This document shows, one piece after another, positions 2 to 8,115 of a stretch of DNA of 64,000 nt (position 1 is its first letter; each line of letters starts with the position of its first letter). The notes under the pieces were generated by a model that was given only the letters and a program-made list of their open reading frames with translations, made no database searches and was not told where the DNA came from. Source of the stretch: an uncultured Candidatus Binatia bacterium (lineage in GTDB: Bacteria > Desulfobacterota > Binatia > Bin18); contig OY282457.1 of NCBI GenBank assembly GCA_958296235.1, positions 885,769 to 949,768 of the forward strand, read 5' to 3'. Made by a program: the position numbers and the translations under genes.

Positions 2-1291
2 GAGTGGGTTTATATAAAGGATATTGCCCAATACGAAGGGCAAGAGGTCGAACTGCGAGGCTGGTTGTATAATAAGCGCTCCAGCGGGAAGCTGCACTTT
101 CTTCAGGTGCGCGACGGCACCGGCACGCTCCAGTGTGTGGTGTTCAAGGGCGACGTCTCAGCCGAAACCTTTGCCTTGGGCCAGGACCTCACCCAGGAAT
201 CGTCCGTTGTGGTCCAGGGTACGGTCCGGGCGGATACGCGCTCGCCGATTGGATTTGAACTTGGCGTGAGCGCCTTACACCTCACCCAGCAGGCCCACGC
301 CTACCCGATTAGCCCCAAAGAACACGGGGTTGCCTTTCTGCTCGACCACCGCCACCTGTGGCTGCGCTCCTCACGCCAGCAGGCTCTCCTGCGTGTTCGC
401 AGTGAAGTCATCAAAGCGTGTCGAGACTACTTCGATACGCGGGGCTTTACCCTGCTCGATGCCCCGATCTTCACCCCTGCCGCCTGTGAAGGCACAACCA
501 CCCTCTTTCCAGTCGACTATTTCGATGACACCGTCTATCTCACCCAGAGTGGGCAGCTCTATATGGAAGCCGGCGCTATGGCGTTCGGCAAAGTCTACTG
601 CTGCGGTCCGACTTTTCGTGCCGAGAAGTCCAAGACGCGACGCCATCTGACTGAATTTTGGATGATTGAGCCCGAAGTGGCCTACTGCGACTTGGATGGC
701 GATATGGACCTGGCCGAAGATTTTCTGGAGACCGTTGTCCAGCGCGTCCTGACCAACCGGCAGGCAGAACTCCAGACGCTTGAGCGTGATATCACCAAAC
801 TCGCTCAGGTCAGGAAGCCGTTTCCGCGTATCAGCTACGGCGAAGCTATCGAACGCCTGCAATCCACGGGCGTTGACATTCAGTGGGGAGACGACTTTGG
901 CGGTGATGACGAGACCATTTTATCCGAACAATTTGACCGGCCGGTTATAGTGCATCGCTATCCGATAGCGAACAAAGCCTTTTATATGAAGACCGACCCG
1001 CAGCATACGACAGTTGCCTTATGTATGGACGTCTTAGCGCCAGAAGGCTATGGCGAGATCATCGGAGGCGGCCAGCGTGAGGACGACCTGCCCGTCTTAC
1101 AAGGAAAACTGGAGGCGCACGACCTGTCCGAAGAAGCCTTCTCTTGGTATCTGGACCTGAGGCGCTACGGCTCCGTTCCCCATGCCGGTTTCGGCATGGG
1201 TATTGAGCGCATGGTCACCTGGCTGTGCGGCCTGCATCACGTTCGAGAATCAATTCCATTTCCCAGAATGCTGGAGCGGGTGACACCCTAA
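2..1291 (+). CDS. asnS: Asparagine--tRNA ligase, 5' end cut by window
   Basis: Class II aminoacyl-tRNA synthetase that charges tRNA-Asn in the cytoplasm. The frame is open from base 2, and the residues before the first possible internal start ([19 protein letters not shown]) are the usual beginning of the AsnS OB-fold anticodon-binding domain, so the true start lies before the window. The class II catalytic core follows: motif 2 around [20 protein letters not shown] and motif 3 near the C-terminus ([16 protein letters not shown]). The [11 protein letters not shown]-type motif 2 and the overall AsnS pattern favour asparaginyl over aspartyl specificity. It converges on the lpxC fusion gene, with 4 bp between the two stop codons. 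The identification is firm; only the N-terminus is missing. Confidence 0.95.
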
Positions 1292-1295
1292 CGGG

Positions 1296-2597
1296 TTACT
1301 GGAGAGCCGAGGCGGTTTTTGGCGCCGGCGCGTGTGGAGCCTGCTCTTCGCGGATTGCCCGCAGCAGCGCGATATTGTCGCCATGTCCCGTCCGGTAGGC
1401 AGTCACCTTGCCGCGGATAGGTTGGCCTAACAGGTAGAGATCGCCAAGCAGATCAAGAATCTTGTGGCGGACAAGCTCATCCTCAAAGCGGAGGGGCGGA
1501 TTGAGGATCCCGTGCTCACCAATCACGAGGCAATTATTCAGCCGACCGCCGTTGGCAAGACCCATCTCTTCAAGTGCCTCAATCTCCTTGAGAAAGCCGA
1601 AGGTCCGCGCCGGCGCAATAGTCTCACGATAACTGTCAGCATCGCGCTGGACGTAGTGGAACTCCTGTCTCCCAACTGGCTCTGGATATTCCAGGCAGTA
1701 GTCGATCTCAAGCTGCTCCGAGGGTTCAATGCGGAGGAATTTCCCCGCGCTGTGGTCGCCGACCTGATAGGTCCGGTCTACGCTCAGGGCCTCCACCTCT
1801 TCGTCTTGTTCAACACTGCCGGCACTGTCGAGCAATTGACAGAATTCCAGCGCCGACCCGTCGAGAATAGGGACCTCCCCCTGCATTTTAATCAGCAGGT
1901 TGGTGATGCCATATCCGTGCAGAGCCGAGAGCAGATGTTCAACCGTTTTCACCCCCGCCCCCTCCCGATACAGGCTGGTTGCATAACCGGTCGATTGGAC
2001 ATACTCGACGGTTGCCGGAATCATCATGTCCGAGGACAAGGGACCGAACACAATACCGCTCCCCGGCGATAAGGGATGTAAAATAATCCCAGTACGCACC
2101 CCCGAGTGGAGCCCCCGGCCATGCACGACAACACTCTGGCGAATGGTCCGAGCCGGGATTTTTCGCGGCGCGTGCCCAGCCGGGATGTCCGCGTCAGCCG
2201 CGGCGGCGATCTGGGCGGCAGTGGCGTGGCGTGGCTCTTTTCCCAGGGCGCGCTGGACCGAACGGAGTAAGGTGTCCAGCGAGAAGGGCTTTTCGAGGAA
2301 ATCCACCGCGCCGAGTTGTGTGGCGCGAACGGCCGTTTCGATCGTGCCATGACCGGAAATCACAATAACCGGCAATTCGGGGTCCCGGGCCTGGAGCTGT
2401 TCGAGGAGAGCAATCCCATCCACATGTGGCATCCAGATGTCGAGAAGCACTAGGCGCGGATGCCACTTGGCGACTAAGTCGAGAACCTCTTCACCTGAGT
2501 CCGCCTCAAGCGTACGGAATCCTTCATCTTGAAAAATGCCGCGCAACATCGTCCGGATTTTCTCTTCGTCGTCCACAATTAAGATAGGCTCTTCCAT
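1296..2597 (-). CDS. lpxC: Receiver domain-LpxC fusion (UDP-3-O-acyl-N-acetylglucosamine deacetylase)
   Basis: A 433-residue single reading frame. Residues 1-121 are a CheY-like receiver domain with all key residues: acidic pair D9/D10, phospho-acceptor D53 (LLDIWMP), S81 and K103 (LEKPF). A linker of about 28 residues, rich in Ala, leads into a complete LpxC domain (about 150-420). That domain keeps E220/H221 (KTVEHLLSALHG), H378 and D382 (RHKILDLLGD) and H405 (TGHGDN), which match the zinc ligands and catalytic residues known for LpxC. LpxC does the first committed step of lipid A synthesis at the inner face of the inner membrane. LpxC normally stands alone at about 300 residues. The gene lies 18 bp downstream of an NtrY-like kinase and is probably cotranscribed. 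The receiver is of NtrX type, but LpxC replaces the AAA+ and DNA-binding output domains. That the kinase controls deacetylase activity is inference. Confidence 0.93.
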   Translation of the reverse strand: MEEPILIVDDEEKIRTMLRGIFQDEGFRTLEADSGEEVLDLVAKWHPRLVLLDIWMPHVDGIALLEQLQARDPELPVIVISGHGTIETAVRATQLGAVDFLEKPFSLDTLLRSVQRALGKEPRHATAAQIAAAADADIPAGHAPRKIPARTIRQSVVVHGRGLHSGVRTGIILHPLSPGSGIVFGPLSSDMMIPATVEYVQSTGYATSLYREGAGVKTVEHLLSALHGYGITNLLIKMQGEVPILDGSALEFCQLLDSAGSVEQDEEVEALSVDRTYQVGDHSAGKFLRIEPSEQLEIDYCLEYPEPVGRQEFHYVQRDADSYRETIAPARTFGFLKEIEALEEMGLANGGRLNNCLVIGEHGILNPPLRFEDELVRHKILDLLGDLYLLGQPIRGKVTAYRTGHGDNIALLRAIREEQAPHAPAPKTASALQ

Positions 2598-2615
2598 TGA
2601 CGTCCCTCCCCTGCC

Positions 2616-4901
2616 TCAGGCTGCGTTTTCAATTGACGCAGCCGAGGGCTTCCCACGCCGCATATCTGTCTGACGCGCACTTCCGCGCACAGGCATCTCA
2701 ATAATGAACCGGCTGCCCCGTGGCGTATTGTCCCGCACGCGGATAAATGCCTGGTGATCAGCCACCACAGTGGCAACAATGGCCAGCCCGAGTCCGGTTC
2801 CATCCTTTTTGGTTGAAAAATACGGCTCAAACAAGCGCTCCTTGATGTCAGACGGAATCCCACAGCCATTATCAGCGACTTCGATGCAGGCAATGCTAAG
2901 CCGGCGCAAATAGCGAATCGTAACTTCGATACGTCCCTGAGTCCCATCCGTCCCTGCTCGGCAGGCGACAACGGCATTGTCTAACAGATTGCGCAGAACA
3001 CGGCGCATCCCCTCACGGTCCAGCTCGAACAACGGCAGTGAGCGATCCGGCGCGAAGGCAATATCCAGATCGCGGTAGGCTTCGGCGATCAGGACAAGCG
3101 TCTCCTGTGCCAACGCATTCAGGTCATGCAGGTTATGCTTTCCCGTCGGCAGACGCGCAAACGTAGAAAATTCGTTGACGAGTTTTTTAATCGCATCGAC
3201 TTCATGCGCGATGCTCTGCACACACTCGTCAAACACCTCGCTCCCGTCCGTAATCTGGGGACCAAACCGGCGCTGGAGGCGCTGGGCCGCAAGCTGAATC
3301 GGTGTCAGCGGATTTTTAATTTCATGCGCAATCCGACGGGCGACCTCACGCCACGCTTCCATCCGTTCAACTTGGACGATCTGCGTCACATCCTCAAAAA
3401 AGCATAACACCCCGAGGGCATGATCGCGGTCGTCAGGCAGAGAGGTGCCGGTTATCAGGAGGGAGTGGACATGCCCATCGCGGTCCAAACGGAGCTGGCC
3501 CTGCTGTTCCTGACTGGCGGCGTCGCCGTTGTCGTGTTGCACCAGAAGGAGGTCATGAACGATGCGCTGCACGGCTTGGAACTCGCTTGCGGAGAAAACA
3601 TCCCGATAGTCCTGCCCAATGACGCTGGCGGCGTGCAGACGCAGCAGCTGCTCCGCCGCCCGGTTCAGGGTAGAGAGCCGACCGGCCCGATTAAACGAGA
3701 CGACGCCGGCGTTGATATTCCCGAGCAGAATCTCCATATAGCGACGCCGGGCCTCAAGTTCCTGGTGACTCTGCTGGAGGTCGACGGTCATCCGATTGAA
3801 GGCGGAAACGAGCGTTCCGATTTCATCCTCCCCTTCTCCCTCAATCCGGTGCGCCCAGTGGCCCTGAGCAACCTCCCGCGTCGCGGCCGATAATTGCTGG
3901 AGGGGAACAGTAATTTTTTTCGCCAGATAGACACCGACCCAGATCGCCGAGAAGATGACGACGAGGGTGACCAGGAACATCGTGATCACATAATTGTTTT
4001 TGATTGGCTGCTTCAAGATTCTGAGCTGGCGATATTCACCCAACGCCTCGACCACCTGCAATCCTTGTCTGCCGATATCCACAGGAACCTGAGCGCCGGC
4101 CACCACAACACCAGCGAGGTGTTCTCCTATGATGACGGGAACCCCTCCGTACACCAACTCGGCCTGCTCCAGCGTCACGATTTGCTGGACCTCTTCGAGC
4201 TCAGACCGGACTTGTTCCAAGAGAGCCTCGCTGAGTTGGGGAGCCGTCAACGCCCCGCTCGTCTCCGGCGCATGGGCCACAAGGGTGAGCGCAGCGGAGT
4301 ACACGACGAGCTGGGTCAGCCCACGTTCGCGCCGCTCGTTGTTCATGCGGGCCTGCAAGCGCTCGTAGTGCGTCGGCTCAAGGAGTTCCTGGGAGATAAT
4401 CGTCCGGGCGATTGCCCGCGCGTGGGTGAGGGTCTCATCCGTAAGACGGGCATAGACCCCATCAACGACCTCAAGCGCGCTGCTCAACGAGCGCTCAACA
4501 CGTAAGGCGAACCAATTCTCGATCGACTGCGTCATAAAGCCGACCCCGATAAAGAACAGGAGTACTGCCGGGAAAAGGGAAATGCCTAAAAAAGCGAGGA
4601 CGAGTCGAGAGCGGAGGTGCGCGCCGGGCAGCTTTCGACGGCGCTCGTAAAACAGCTTCAGCAGGTTCCGCCCAACCAGGAAAACGAGCAAAACAAGCAG
4701 AATGATATTGAGATTGATCAGCAGAATAAAAGTAAGGTTGCCGATCAGGCTGTCGCTGTCGCTGAGCTGTGGCGAGCGGCTCTGGAGAAAGGCGAATAAA
4801 AAGACACCTAGCCCCGCGGCGAGGATGACCAACCCCTCCCAGAACAGGCGGCGTTTGTGCTCCTCCGAGCGATTGTCGTGGACCGAGGCTTCCATACTCA
4901 C
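2616..4901 (-). CDS. NtrY-like membrane sensor histidine kinase
   Basis: A 761-residue inner-membrane kinase. Hydrophobic segments lie near residues 20-40, 58-78 and 98-124, followed by an extracytoplasmic sensor region to about 303, then a fourth membrane segment at about 304-326. A HAMP domain (about 327-380), a PAS-like domain (about 385-505), HisKA with the phospho-acceptor H526 (ARRIAHEIKNPLTPIQLAAQ), and HATPase_c with N638/N642, DNGCG (677-681) and GTGLG (701-705) complete it. This is the NtrY/NtrY-like architecture. The start is a GTG with GGAG 8 bases upstream; an ATG two codons later is also possible. Its normal partner would be an NtrX-type sigma-54 activator, but here the adjacent gene is a receiver fused to LpxC. 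It is the natural phosphodonor candidate for that fusion; the signal sensed is unknown. Confidence 0.9.
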   Translation of the reverse strand: MSMEASVHDNRSEEHKRRLFWEGLVILAAGLGVFLFAFLQSRSPQLSDSDSLIGNLTFILLINLNIILLVLLVFLVGRNLLKLFYERRRKLPGAHLRSRLVLAFLGISLFPAVLLFFIGVGFMTQSIENWFALRVERSLSSALEVVDGVYARLTDETLTHARAIARTIISQELLEPTHYERLQARMNNERRERGLTQLVVYSAALTLVAHAPETSGALTAPQLSEALLEQVRSELEEVQQIVTLEQAELVYGGVPVIIGEHLAGVVVAGAQVPVDIGRQGLQVVEALGEYRQLRILKQPIKNNYVITMFLVTLVVIFSAIWVGVYLAKKITVPLQQLSAATREVAQGHWAHRIEGEGEDEIGTLVSAFNRMTVDLQQSHQELEARRRYMEILLGNINAGVVSFNRAGRLSTLNRAAEQLLRLHAASVIGQDYRDVFSASEFQAVQRIVHDLLLVQHDNGDAASQEQQGQLRLDRDGHVHSLLITGTSLPDDRDHALGVLCFFEDVTQIVQVERMEAWREVARRIAHEIKNPLTPIQLAAQRLQRRFGPQITDGSEVFDECVQSIAHEVDAIKKLVNEFSTFARLPTGKHNLHDLNALAQETLVLIAEAYRDLDIAFAPDRSLPLFELDREGMRRVLRNLLDNAVVACRAGTDGTQGRIEVTIRYLRRLSIACIEVADNGCGIPSDIKERLFEPYFSTKKDGTGLGLAIVATVVADHQAFIRVRDNTPRGSRFIIEMPVRGSARQTDMRRGKPSAASIENAA

Positions 4902-4985: not shown

Positions 4986-6098
4986 TCAGAACAAATCGCC
5001 CTGCTCTTTTTTCCGAGGCTGGTCAATCTGCAAATGCTGGTACGCCTTGAGGGTGGCCACCCGTCCCCGCGGCGTGCGCTGCAAAAACCCTTCTTGCAAG
5101 AGATACGGCTCATATACGTCTTCAATGGTGTTCTTCTCTTCGCCAAGGGCTGCCGCTATGGTCTCGACACCGACCGGCCCACCGTTGAATTTCTCGATAA
5201 TCGTGCGCAGAATCGCCAGGTCCATTTTATCAAATCCGGCCGCATCCACTTCAACCAGCGTCAGGGCGACATGCGCCACTTCTTGCGTCACCACCGGCTC
5301 TTTCTTCACTTGGGCATAGTCCCGTACCCGTCGGAGTAAACGATTGGCAATCCGCGGCGTTCCCCGTGAGCGACGCGCGATTTCCGCGGTTCCACCCGCA
5401 TCGGTCTCAACCTCCAGAATTGAGGCCGACCGACGAATGATCTGTTCCAACTCGGACACCTGGTAAAAATCCAGTCGAAACGTTGACCCAAAACGATCGC
5501 GCAGCGGTGAGGTTAACAGCCCGGCGCGGGTAGTGGCACCGACTAAAGTGAAGTGCTTGAGTGGCAACTTTACCGTGCGCGCTGAAGGGCCCTGGCCGAC
5601 GACGAGGTCAAGTTCAAAGTCCTCCATTGCCGGATACAGAAATTCCTCAACCACGTGATTGAGTCGATGGATCTCGTCAATGAAGAGCACATCCCCTTCT
5701 TCCAGGTTGGTCAGAATAGCGGCCAGGTCGCCGGGCCGTTCAACCACCGGGCCGGTGGTGGCCCGAATCGTTCCATCCATTTCCCGCGCAATAATATGCG
5801 CCAGGGATGTTTTTCCCAATCCGGGCGGCCCACAGAAGAGCAGATGGTCAAGAACATCAGCCCGCTGTTTGGCGGCTTCAATCGCGATCGCCAGATTCTG
5901 TTTTGTCCCTTCCTGTCCAATGTATTCTTCAAGGCTGCGCGGGCGGAGCGAACCCTCGACACGTGGCTCGTCAGGCCAGGCAGCGTCACCGTCCGACAGA
6001 GCATCCAACGACGACGCTTGGGGATTCAGCACGTCGCGCCCCGGACTAGCCGGATTGTCGGGCGTCTCTTTTGGCCCGTCTCTCGCGGCGCGGCTCAT
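4986..6098 (-). CDS. ruvB: Holliday junction branch migration ATPase RuvB
   Basis: AAA+ motor that drives branch migration of Holliday junctions together with RuvA. Walker A is GPPGLGKT (residues 90-97), Walker [10 protein letters not shown] (136-144), and the sensor region GATTRAG and the C-terminal winged helix are present. At 370 residues it is slightly longer than usual because of an N-terminal extension of about 45 residues, rich in Pro, Asp and Ser, before the conserved [12 protein letters not shown]. The ATG overlaps the ruvA stop by 4 bases, which supports this start and translational coupling in a yebC-ruvC-ruvA-ruvB operon. Confidence 0.96.
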
Positions 6099-6682
6099 GT
6101 GCTGAGCCTCCGTAACGATTCTCGGATCACGTCGGCAATAGCCGTGTGCCCATCCCGGACAACCGCGCGCACCGTCTTCTCGGCTTGCGCCTGCCGATAG
6201 CCCAGATTCACCAGAGCAGAGGTCGCTTCAGTCGAGAGTGGACTGGGCATTGCCGCTGGCAGGCCATTCTCCTGTTCACTCGCGCCGACTTTCTCCTGGA
6301 GTTCGACAACCAGACGTTCAGCCGTCTTTTTTCCAACACCCGGAGTCGCAACCAGGCGAGTCACGTCGCGCGCATGAAGCGCGCTCTCAAGCTCATTCAC
6401 TGGAATGCCCGACAGGATATTCAGGGCCAGGCGCGGGCCAATGCCACTCACGCTACGCAGCAGCAGAAAATAGGTTTTTTCCTTTTCTTCCAGAAAGCCG
6501 AACAACTGGAGAGCGTCTTCTCGCGCATGCGTATGGATGAGCAAACTGACCCGTTCCCCTACTCCCGGTAGATGATAGAAGGTTTGCAACGACACCAACA
6601 CCTGATAGCCGACTCCGCCAACGTCGACAATGAGCTGCTCAGGGGTCTTTTCGTGAAGCACTCCGTGGAGGCGCGCAATCAT
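6095..6682 (-). CDS. ruvA: Holliday junction-binding protein RuvA
   Basis: A 195-residue Holliday-junction-binding subunit. An N-terminal OB-fold ([17 protein letters not shown]) is followed by two helix-hairpin-helix motifs ([16 protein letters not shown] and [17 protein letters not shown]) and a C-terminal three-helix domain that contacts RuvB ([20 protein letters not shown]). Length and domain order are normal for the family. It lies 21 bp downstream of ruvC and overlaps ruvB by 4 bases, so the three are almost certainly cotranscribed. Confidence 0.96.
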
Positions 6683-6703: not shown

Positions 6704-7321
6704 TTACCGATGCTTTTTCTGATCTGCTGCAAGCATCTGAGCGACCGTCTGTTCAGTAAAGACGTCGCGCAAAGAGCGAGCCTTCCTGCCCCCAGACCGC
6801 CGCGGCGGAGCGCCGACCTGGCGGAGCATATCGGGCATACGGGCGGCGCTGCAGTAACAAATGGCTGCCGCGAGCGCATCCGTTGCATCCTGGCTTGACG
6901 GAAAGACCCCGGCTTCTCCGTCTGGATGGCGCAGTTGGGAAAAAACCGCTTTTTGGACCTGCATTTTTCCTGCCCGGCCATACCCGGCCACCGCCGTTTT
7001 GATTTCCGTCGGATTATACTCGGCAATCCGCAGACCGGCTTGGGCGGCGGCCAGAAGCACCACACCCCGCGCCTCGCCGAGGCGCAGAGCGCTCTGGACG
7101 TTATGCGCCACAAAGGCTTTTTCAAGACTCAAGACGTGGGGAGTCCAGCGGTCAATCACCACAACAAGTTCTGCGTAGATGAGACGCAGGCGTTCAGGCA
7201 GGGAGCGGAAGCCTTTGACGGAGACGACATCGCCGGCACAAAAGGTCAACGTCCGGCGCGTCTTCTCAATGACACCCCAGCCGGTCCGCAGGGTGCCAGG
7301 GTCTATCCCCAACACACGCAA
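6704..7321 (-). CDS. ruvC: Crossover junction endodeoxyribonuclease RuvC
   Basis: Resolves Holliday junctions by paired nicking, acting after RuvAB. The RNase H-like fold carries the expected acidic residues: D7 (MRVLGIDPGT), E67 (LSLEKAF) and D145/D148 (SQDATDAL). At 205 residues it is slightly longer than typical, with a basic C-terminal tail (RRSGGRKARSLRDVF). It lies 41 bp downstream of the yebC gene and just upstream of ruvA, the common yebC-ruvCAB order. Confidence 0.95.
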   Translation of the reverse strand: MRVLGIDPGTLRTGWGVIEKTRRTLTFCAGDVVSVKGFRSLPERLRLIYAELVVVIDRWTPHVLSLEKAFVAHNVQSALRLGEARGVVLLAAAQAGLRIAEYNPTEIKTAVAGYGRAGKMQVQKAVFSQLRHPDGEAGVFPSSQDATDALAAAICYCSAARMPDMLRQVGAPPRRSGGRKARSLRDVFTEQTVAQMLAADQKKHR

Positions 7322-7362: not shown

Positions 7363-8115
7363 TCAGGCCGCACTGAGCCGTTCCATCTCCTCTTCAGCAA
7401 TTTCTACATTAGCGGAAACGGTTTGCACATCGTCGAGTTCCTGGAGTGCGTCGAGCAGACGTAAGGTTTGTTCGGCCTCCTTGCCGGAGAGACTGACCGT
7501 GTTTTGGGGCACCATTGTCGCCTCAACCGATACCGTCCCGATATCGGCGTTTTCGAGCGCCTGCCGCACGTCTTCGAGACCGGCAGGCGCTGTCACAATC
7601 TCAAACATATCATCGCCCGTTGTGACATCTTCCGCTCCGGCGTCAAGGGCGATTTCCATAATTTGATCTTCCTCAGCCTGATCTTTTTCTATGGTAATAA
7701 TACCCTTGTGGGTGAACATCCACGCAACGGAATTGGGCTGGCCTAAACTCCCACCATTTTTGGTGAACAGATGGCGCACTTCAGAAACCGTTCGCTTTTT
7801 ATTGTCCGTCAGCGTCTGGAGCAGAATGGCCGCCCCGCCTGGCGCATGCCCCTCGTAGGTCACCTCTTCATAGCTGACGCCCTCAAGCTCTCCGGCGCCT
7901 TTTTTCACCGCCCGGTCTATCGTATCTCCCGGCATACTGGCCGCTTTTGCCGTGGCGATGGCCGTGCGTAAGCGGGGGTTTGCGGCCGGGTCGCTCCCAC
8001 CCATCCGGGCCGCAATCGAGAGGTCTTTAATCAATTTTGTGAACATCTTGCCCCGACGGGCATCCTTGACCGCCTTCTTATGCTTAATTGTGCTCCATTT
8101 GGAATGGCCGGACAT
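7363..8115 (-). CDS. yebC: YebC/PmpR family regulator or translation factor
   Basis: A 250-residue YebC/PmpR protein. The family signature at the N-terminus (MSGHSKWSTIKHKKAVKDAR) is intact and the three-domain length is normal. Members have been described as DNA-binding transcription regulators and, for some, as factors that help ribosomes through difficult sequences; which role applies cannot be read from the sequence. The start follows a purine-rich stretch (GGAGG) and heads the yebC-ruvC-ruvA-ruvB cluster. Confidence 0.94.
   Translation of the reverse strand: MSGHSKWSTIKHKKAVKDARRGKMFTKLIKDLSIAARMGGSDPAANPRLRTAIATAKAASMPGDTIDRAVKKGAGELEGVSYEEVTYEGHAPGGAAILLQTLTDNKKRTVSEVRHLFTKNGGSLGQPNSVAWMFTHKGIITIEKDQAEEDQIMEIALDAGAEDVTTGDDMFEIVTAPAGLEDVRQALENADIGTVSVEATMVPQNTVSLSGKEAEQTLRLLDALQELDDVQTVSANVEIAEEEMERLSAA

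Follow-up and report, generated by a model that had tools for sequence, protein, structure and literature searches.

An NtrX-type receiver joined to LpxC beside an NtrY-type kinase in Candidatus Binatia: a possible direct control of lipid A synthesis

What is a receiver domain doing on an enzyme of lipid A synthesis? The question is raised by a stretch of 64,000 nucleotides from an uncultured Candidatus Binatia bacterium (the window), in which a receiver (REC) domain and UDP-3-O-acyl-GlcNAc deacetylase (LpxC) are encoded as one protein next to the gene of an NtrY-type sensor histidine kinase. LpxC catalyses the essential committed and rate-setting step of lipid A synthesis and is an antibiotic target. 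To our knowledge, the matching of lipid A output to the state of the envelope is understood in detail for few proteobacteria only. The answer which we favor, and which we hold to be rather probable, is that NtrY phosphorylates the receiver, that the state of the receiver controls the attached LpxC, and that the fusion arose from a whole NtrX protein; the phosphotransfer and its effect on LpxC are what we infer from the sequences.

Domains and active sites of the fusion protein and the kinase

The open reading frame (ORF) of the fusion starts with ATG and contains zero internal stops. Pfam assigns Response_reg to residues 5-114 (E 2.4e-32) and LpxC to residues 150-415 (E 1.1e-86), the latter model (PF03331) reaching 291 bits against a cut-off of 27; TIGR00325 scores 268 bits against a cut-off of 187. 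The relatives of the LpxC domain in the PDB include 5u86 and 1p42. The response-regulator pocket is complete with its acidic pair (D9, D10), the phospho-acceptor Asp (D53), the Ser/Thr (S81) and the Lys (K103), and E220, H221, H378, D382 and H405 of LpxC are all present. The initial annotation, which had described an intact receiver in one frame with an intact LpxC, is thereby borne out. The active-site residues of both domains are invariant in 43/43 fused homologues and in 12/12 spirochaete homologues, position 81 being S or T, and K379 too is among the zinc-ligand and catalytic residues of LpxC that do not vary in the 55/55 fused homologues.

The genome of the host is a single contig of 4,624,001 bases, in which REC-LpxC is the sole LpxC and in which LpxB and LpxK were also found. 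This position as the only LpxC gene beside LpxB and LpxK is an indirect indication of the predicted deacetylase activity.

The top REC model for the receiver is NtrX (NF051870, 130.8 bits over 5-122), and in the REC tree the fusion receiver groups with NtrX receivers. Helix alpha1 of the fused receivers matches the NtrX pattern (I..SL.G.L.DEG), unlike the other NtrC-type regulators which the host genome encodes and three of which adjoin their own kinases. The protein of the window is not classed as NtrX itself, because neither the sigma-54 AAA+ domain with its GAFTGA loop nor the Fis helix-turn-helix was found in it by Pfam.

The kinase contains HAMP, PAS, HisKA and HATPase_c domains and a weak NtrY_N match (PF19312, 23.8 bits against a cut-off of 23.2), so that the NtrY-like kinase reported 18 bp upstream of the fusion could be identified as such. 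In an alignment of 45 NtrY sequences its phospho-acceptor histidine and ATP-binding motifs are kept, apart from two G-to-S changes in the last box. The short spacer with the ribosome-binding-site-like GGGGAGGGA is consistent with a co-transcription of both genes. A second large HisKA kinase ORF (760 amino acids, aa) is located elsewhere in the host genome (G000:C1:15939-16193).

Between the window and its two close relatives the ratio of nonsynonymous to synonymous substitution rates (dN/dS) lies at ~0.09 in the receiver, compared with 0.05-0.08 in LpxC and 0.32-0.68 in the linker. Judged by these ratios, the receiver is under strong purifying selection and nearly as constrained as the enzyme, while the linker is relaxed.

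Distribution of the fusion and the likely partner of NtrY

Among named relatives the nearest are two Candidatus Binatia assemblies, in which both genes (~90% identity) and their neighbours are alike. Because these two independent assemblies carry the same genes, a frameshift or an assembly join between the domains, against which the initial annotation had cautioned, is ruled out. Across 395 surveyed genomes of the host phylum, most of them metagenome assemblies, a full-length receiver-LpxC protein was found in 15/15 Binatia genomes sampled besides the host. By matched coverage, open-frame length and loci read in detail, 91/395 genomes were counted as fused, some of them assigned only from frame length and family membership. 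In the phylum to which the spirochaete record L005 belongs, 34/35 genomes matching at E 1e-50 have the fusion, a number that is not a census, since the threshold and the fused query favor fused forms. The concern that no other genome might share the architecture is thus dispelled, and a one-off fusion was rejected because of the many carriers in the phylum-wide survey.

Some of the spirochaete genomes with receiver-LpxC proteins (L214-L225, phylum of G397) are low-GC single-chromosome genomes (G+C 24-30%). In one locus (L135:6818-9061) the receiver is encoded by a separate ORF of 117 aa upstream of an AAA+-LpxC ORF of 630 aa, which is due to a frame break or a sequencing error in that assembly. 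G402 was considered as a reverted standalone LpxC and dropped, as the ORF runs off the contig end and is uninformative.

Which protein receives the phosphoryl group of NtrY in these genomes? With free NtrX as query, and with NtrX-level matches defined by E below 1e-135, a cut chosen after both groups had been seen, 2/91 fused genomes gave such a match versus 266/304 unfused genomes of the phylum (Fisher p 7e-55, inflated by genome relatedness). The contrast holds within the mixed families f17 (fused G009, G047 and G083 versus G113 and G142), f34 and f55. A search of 28 genomes, the majority of them fused, found exactly one NtrY at E 1e-45 in 23. Unlinked NtrY genes are without an NtrX neighbour in 19/20 loci, and in the window and its Binatia relatives NtrY adjoins the fusion. 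Since free NtrX is missing from nearly all fused genomes, NtrY is mostly single and the other NtrC-type regulators of the host differ in alpha1, the pairing of NtrY with the receiver on LpxC as its sole plausible partner is strongly supported by these comparisons.

In family f40 (G208, G252) a second, standalone LpxC adjoins NtrY, and G208 also has an NtrX-level match; the loci (L131 and L164 with L189 and L190) show two LpxC genes per genome, one fused to a receiver and one standalone beside NtrY. In family f61 (L143, L166) ORFs combining receiver and kinase domains precede the long fusion described below, possibly as a hybrid-kinase phosphorelay.

Several related loci have a DUF4390 gene on the 5' side of ntrY. 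In Bordetella PlrSR the DUF4390 protein PlrP is reported to act as a third, periplasmic component by which the phosphatase activity of the kinase is restrained (PMC13001219), and the position of the gene together with this role suggests an envelope signal. No DUF4390 match was obtained in the host genome, but 14/14 control genomes were equally silent, so that this result does not establish an absence. The PlrP-like gene stands upstream of ntrY in L157, L159, L183, L184, L191, L193, L196, L197 and L201, and clustered homologues occur in L121, L132 and L165; DUF4390-ntrY loci of this kind occur beyond the proteobacterial classes for which PMC13001219 reports them.

Origin from NtrX and gene order at the locus

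Several families encode a long form of ~730 aa, which consists of a receiver, a sigma-54-type AAA+ domain with lid, and LpxC. The part that precedes LpxC aligns with positions 4-452 of the NCBIfam NtrX model, which has 452 positions in all. Walker A (GExGTGKE) and WPGN-KEL are kept in the AAA+ domain, while the GAFTGA loop, which contacts sigma-54, has been lost and Walker B has an eroded acidic pair; it is possible that the domain, placed between receiver and LpxC, persists as a module that binds nucleotides but is dead for transcription. A profile-profile comparison by hhalign relates the stretch directly ahead of LpxC to the C-terminal Fis-type region of NtrX (probability 98.4%, E 6.6e-15). 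Even at E 1, no helix-turn-helix match by Pfam was convincing in the long forms (no HTH_8, only HTH_28 at 0.18 in L137). The unfused relatives possess a real NtrX with GAFTGA and HTH_8. Whole-NtrX-LpxC fusions were observed in L132-L134, L136-L137, L139-L146, L165 and L166, with ORFs of about 700-820 aa.

In the LpxC tree every fused form is found on one side of a single branch (support 100/99) versus 10 sampled standalone LpxC proteins, and NtrX was therefore most likely captured once. Long and short forms are intermixed in this tree, which requires five changes by parsimony, at least two of which are forced by well-supported branches. The simplest and most likely reading is that a whole NtrX was captured once and that its middle part was then lost repeatedly. 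The direction from long to short is deduced from the decay of the AAA+ domain and the helix-turn-helix and not from the tree itself. A separate recruitment of a lone receiver was rejected in favor of the whole-NtrX capture, because long forms exist. In the order of events that we propose, a complete NtrX would first have been fused to LpxC; the AAA+ domain would then have lost its sigma-54 contact loop while the DNA-binding helix-turn-helix decayed; and everything between receiver and LpxC would finally have been deleted in Binatia and several other lineages.

The coordinates of the locus are summarized in Table 1. On the minus strand the genes follow each other in the order yebC-like, ruvC, ruvA, ruvB, NtrY-type kinase and REC-LpxC, and the ntrY-fusion loci of relatives are also flanked by yebC/ruv genes. 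Unfused loci show the order lpxC-ntrY-ntrX or lpxC-DUF4390-ntrY-ntrX (L152, L156, L157, L159), and near one of them (L159) a yebC-like gene is located, as in the window. One may speculate that a tandem duplication and a deletion turned lpxC-ntrY-ntrX into ntrY followed by the ntrX-lpxC fusion.

Table 1. Features of the REC-LpxC locus (positions in the window)
Feature	Position	Strand	Description
REC-LpxC fusion gene	1296..2597	-	433 aa; single-domain NtrX-type receiver and UDP-3-O-acyl-GlcNAc deacetylase
Receiver domain	2241..2597	-	residues 1-119; D9, D10, D53, S81, K103; Pfam PF00072
Ala-rich linker	2154..2240	-	residues 120-148
LpxC deacetylase domain	1344..2153	-	residues 149-418; E220, H221, H378, K379, D382, H405; Pfam PF03331
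Spacer between kinase and fusion	2598..2615	-	18 bp; ribosome-binding-site-like GGGGAGGGA directly 5' of the fusion ATG
NtrY-type sensor histidine kinase	2616..4901	-	761 aa; membrane region, HAMP, PAS, HisKA (HEIKNPLTPIQ), HATPase_c
ruvB	4986-6098	-	upstream of the kinase; Pfam-confirmed
ruvA	6095-6682	-	upstream; name from sequence
ruvC	6704-7321	-	upstream; name from sequence
yebC-like gene	7363-8115	-	upstream; name from sequence
asnS-like gene	65-1291		converges from the other side

Proposed control of LpxC by the receiver and comparison with known systems

In the proposed mechanism NtrY would sense a signal at the membrane and autophosphorylate on the histidine of HEIKNPL, and the phosphoryl group would pass to D53 of the receiver or be removed from it by NtrY. 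The state of the receiver would then control LpxC in cis, either by packing against LpxC or by dimerization of the receiver; alternatively it could change the stability of LpxC or its recruitment to NtrY at the inner membrane. As the short form has no DNA-binding domain, we infer that this control would act without transcription. A logic unlike FtsH proteolysis is consistent with the very short C-terminal tails of most fused proteins and with the host genome, in which no LapB zinc-ribbon match was found, but regulated proteolysis may still take place. A wider claim, to which we give even chances, is that NtrX became a covalent enzyme switch that spread to several phyla including the spirochaetes, the kinase setting the rate of lipid A synthesis directly in place of transcriptional and LapB/FtsH-type control. 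If this is true, a sensor kinase may switch outer-membrane synthesis directly, bypassing gene expression, and a phospho-switch within the enzyme would amount to a new logic of control that large uncultured groups and, apparently, cultured spirochaetes have conserved.

The AlphaFold2 (AF2) model of the fusion shows both domains well folded (mean predicted local distance difference test, pLDDT, 85.3; predicted template modelling score, pTM, 0.82) with a low-confidence or disordered linker at 122-143. LpxC alone explains a template modelling score (TM) of about 0.59 of the chain; compared with the pTM of the whole chain, this means that the model positions the receiver with some confidence, which hints at a defined arrangement of REC and LpxC. 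The model of the long form (pTM 0.46) is too weak for domain packing.

Several observations weigh against a general control of LpxC by NtrY through its receiver. Around the fusion, the spirochaete regions read yielded no NtrY match, and the fused genomes G239, G374, G393 and G397 gave no NtrY at the threshold used, so that there either other kinases must serve or the receiver is used otherwise. NtrX persists beside NtrY in the fused genome G285, and the co-loss statistics rest on related genomes with no species-tree correction. In addition, the length of the linker differs among the homologues (about 20-68 residues in short forms), and a linker that is variable and disordered does not favor a rigid lever acting through it.

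It is conceivable, though clearly less probable than direct control in cis, that the receiver governs the amount or the place of LpxC, phosphorylation exposing the fusion to FtsH, Lon or ClpXP or hiding it from them, or letting LpxC dock on NtrY at the inner membrane. In other bacteria most known control of LpxC works through proteolysis or recruitment to the membrane (PMC12444477), the flexible linker suits a tether, and in the window and its two closest relatives the tail of LpxC ends in SALQ. However, the genome lacks a LapB zinc-ribbon match, most fused LpxC proteins extend only 3-8 residues beyond the catalytic domain and have no E. coli-like degron, and such a role would not alone require that the receiver-LpxC order be kept across phyla.

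We consider it unlikely that the receiver merely serves the kinase, as a phosphate sink or feedback target of NtrY or by keeping LpxC and NtrY in step, with LpxC constitutively active. The fast evolution of the linker would fit such a role. On the other hand, the AF2 model places the domains relative to each other, and NtrY would be left without a known output in the 89/91 fused genomes in which free NtrX is absent, yet the catalytic residues of NtrY and receiver are kept. Still less credible is a passive relic, that is, a chance gene fusion whose receiver no longer signals: fused genes can be retained even if they regulate nothing, and the AAA+ and helix-turn-helix parts did decay, but the five active-site positions of the receiver are conserved in 55/55 homologues, its dN/dS is low, and the domains in between were lost, apparently more than once. 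An artefact of assembly or annotation is refuted by the same frame in independent assemblies and dozens of genomes, and its probability is negligible.

Control of LpxC as described so far comprises proteolysis by FtsH/LapB/YejM, activation by MurA, and transcription under NtrYX, ChvGI or DVU2934 (PMC12444477, PMC3333781). In the open-access literature on LpxC, NtrX/NtrY, output domains, Sphaerochaeta, Brachyspira and two-component systems of Binatota no description of a receiver-LpxC fusion was found. A review of lipid A regulation from 2025 (PMC12444477) does not mention a receiver or a fusion on LpxC, a Brachyspira genome paper lists lpxC without comment, and LpxC-FabZ is the only fusion that a paper on LpxC evolution (PMC3087551) describes.

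Closest to the system of the window is NtrY-NtrX of Rhodobacter sphaeroides and Caulobacter crescentus (PlrSR in Bordetella), with which it shares the kinase family, the NtrX-type receiver and, in many related loci, the DUF4390 partner upstream of ntrY. There NtrX is a DNA-binding protein of its own, whereas the fusion of the window carries the receiver on LpxC and has kept no DNA-binding domain. Alphaproteobacterial NtrYX lowers the transcript levels of lpxC (PMC7240162, PMC12444477); the lpxC gene of R. sphaeroides showed no binding site for NtrX, and the effect was taken as indirect (PMC7240162). Because NtrYX lowers lpxC expression in R. sphaeroides and Caulobacter, a brake on LpxC is by analogy a reasonable first guess for the sign of the effect, and nothing more. 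DVU2934 of Desulfovibrio vulgaris is a two-component regulator with lpxC as its single mapped target (PMC3333781). It is, however, a separate DNA-binding regulator that acts on transcription, whereas the receiver of the window is joined to the enzyme.

FtsH/LapB/YejM in E. coli and the binding of MurA in P. aeruginosa control the same committed-step enzyme post-translationally, as is proposed here, but they do so by proteolysis or by a separate bound protein (PMC12444477); the receiver of the fusion is covalently attached, and the LapB zinc-ribbon match is missing. Another natural LpxC fusion is LpxC-FabZ of Bacteroidetes, Chlorobi and Verrucomicrobia (PMC3087551). Its partner is a fatty-acid enzyme and it has no receiver, in contrast to the fusion described here.

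Response regulators with enzyme outputs are known, as in CheB, PleD and RpfG. In these proteins receiver and enzyme form one chain and phosphorylation sets the activity, and the one-chain layout is shared by REC-LpxC. The enzyme outputs of response regulators known to us act on signalling molecules or chemoreceptors, whereas the output here is predicted to be an essential envelope biosynthetic enzyme. While receivers with enzyme outputs are thus already known as a kind, what is new here, as read from the sequences, is the origin of the fusion from a whole NtrX, with intermediates and with loss of free NtrX, a series which offers rare readable steps from a transcription factor to a putative direct enzyme regulator.

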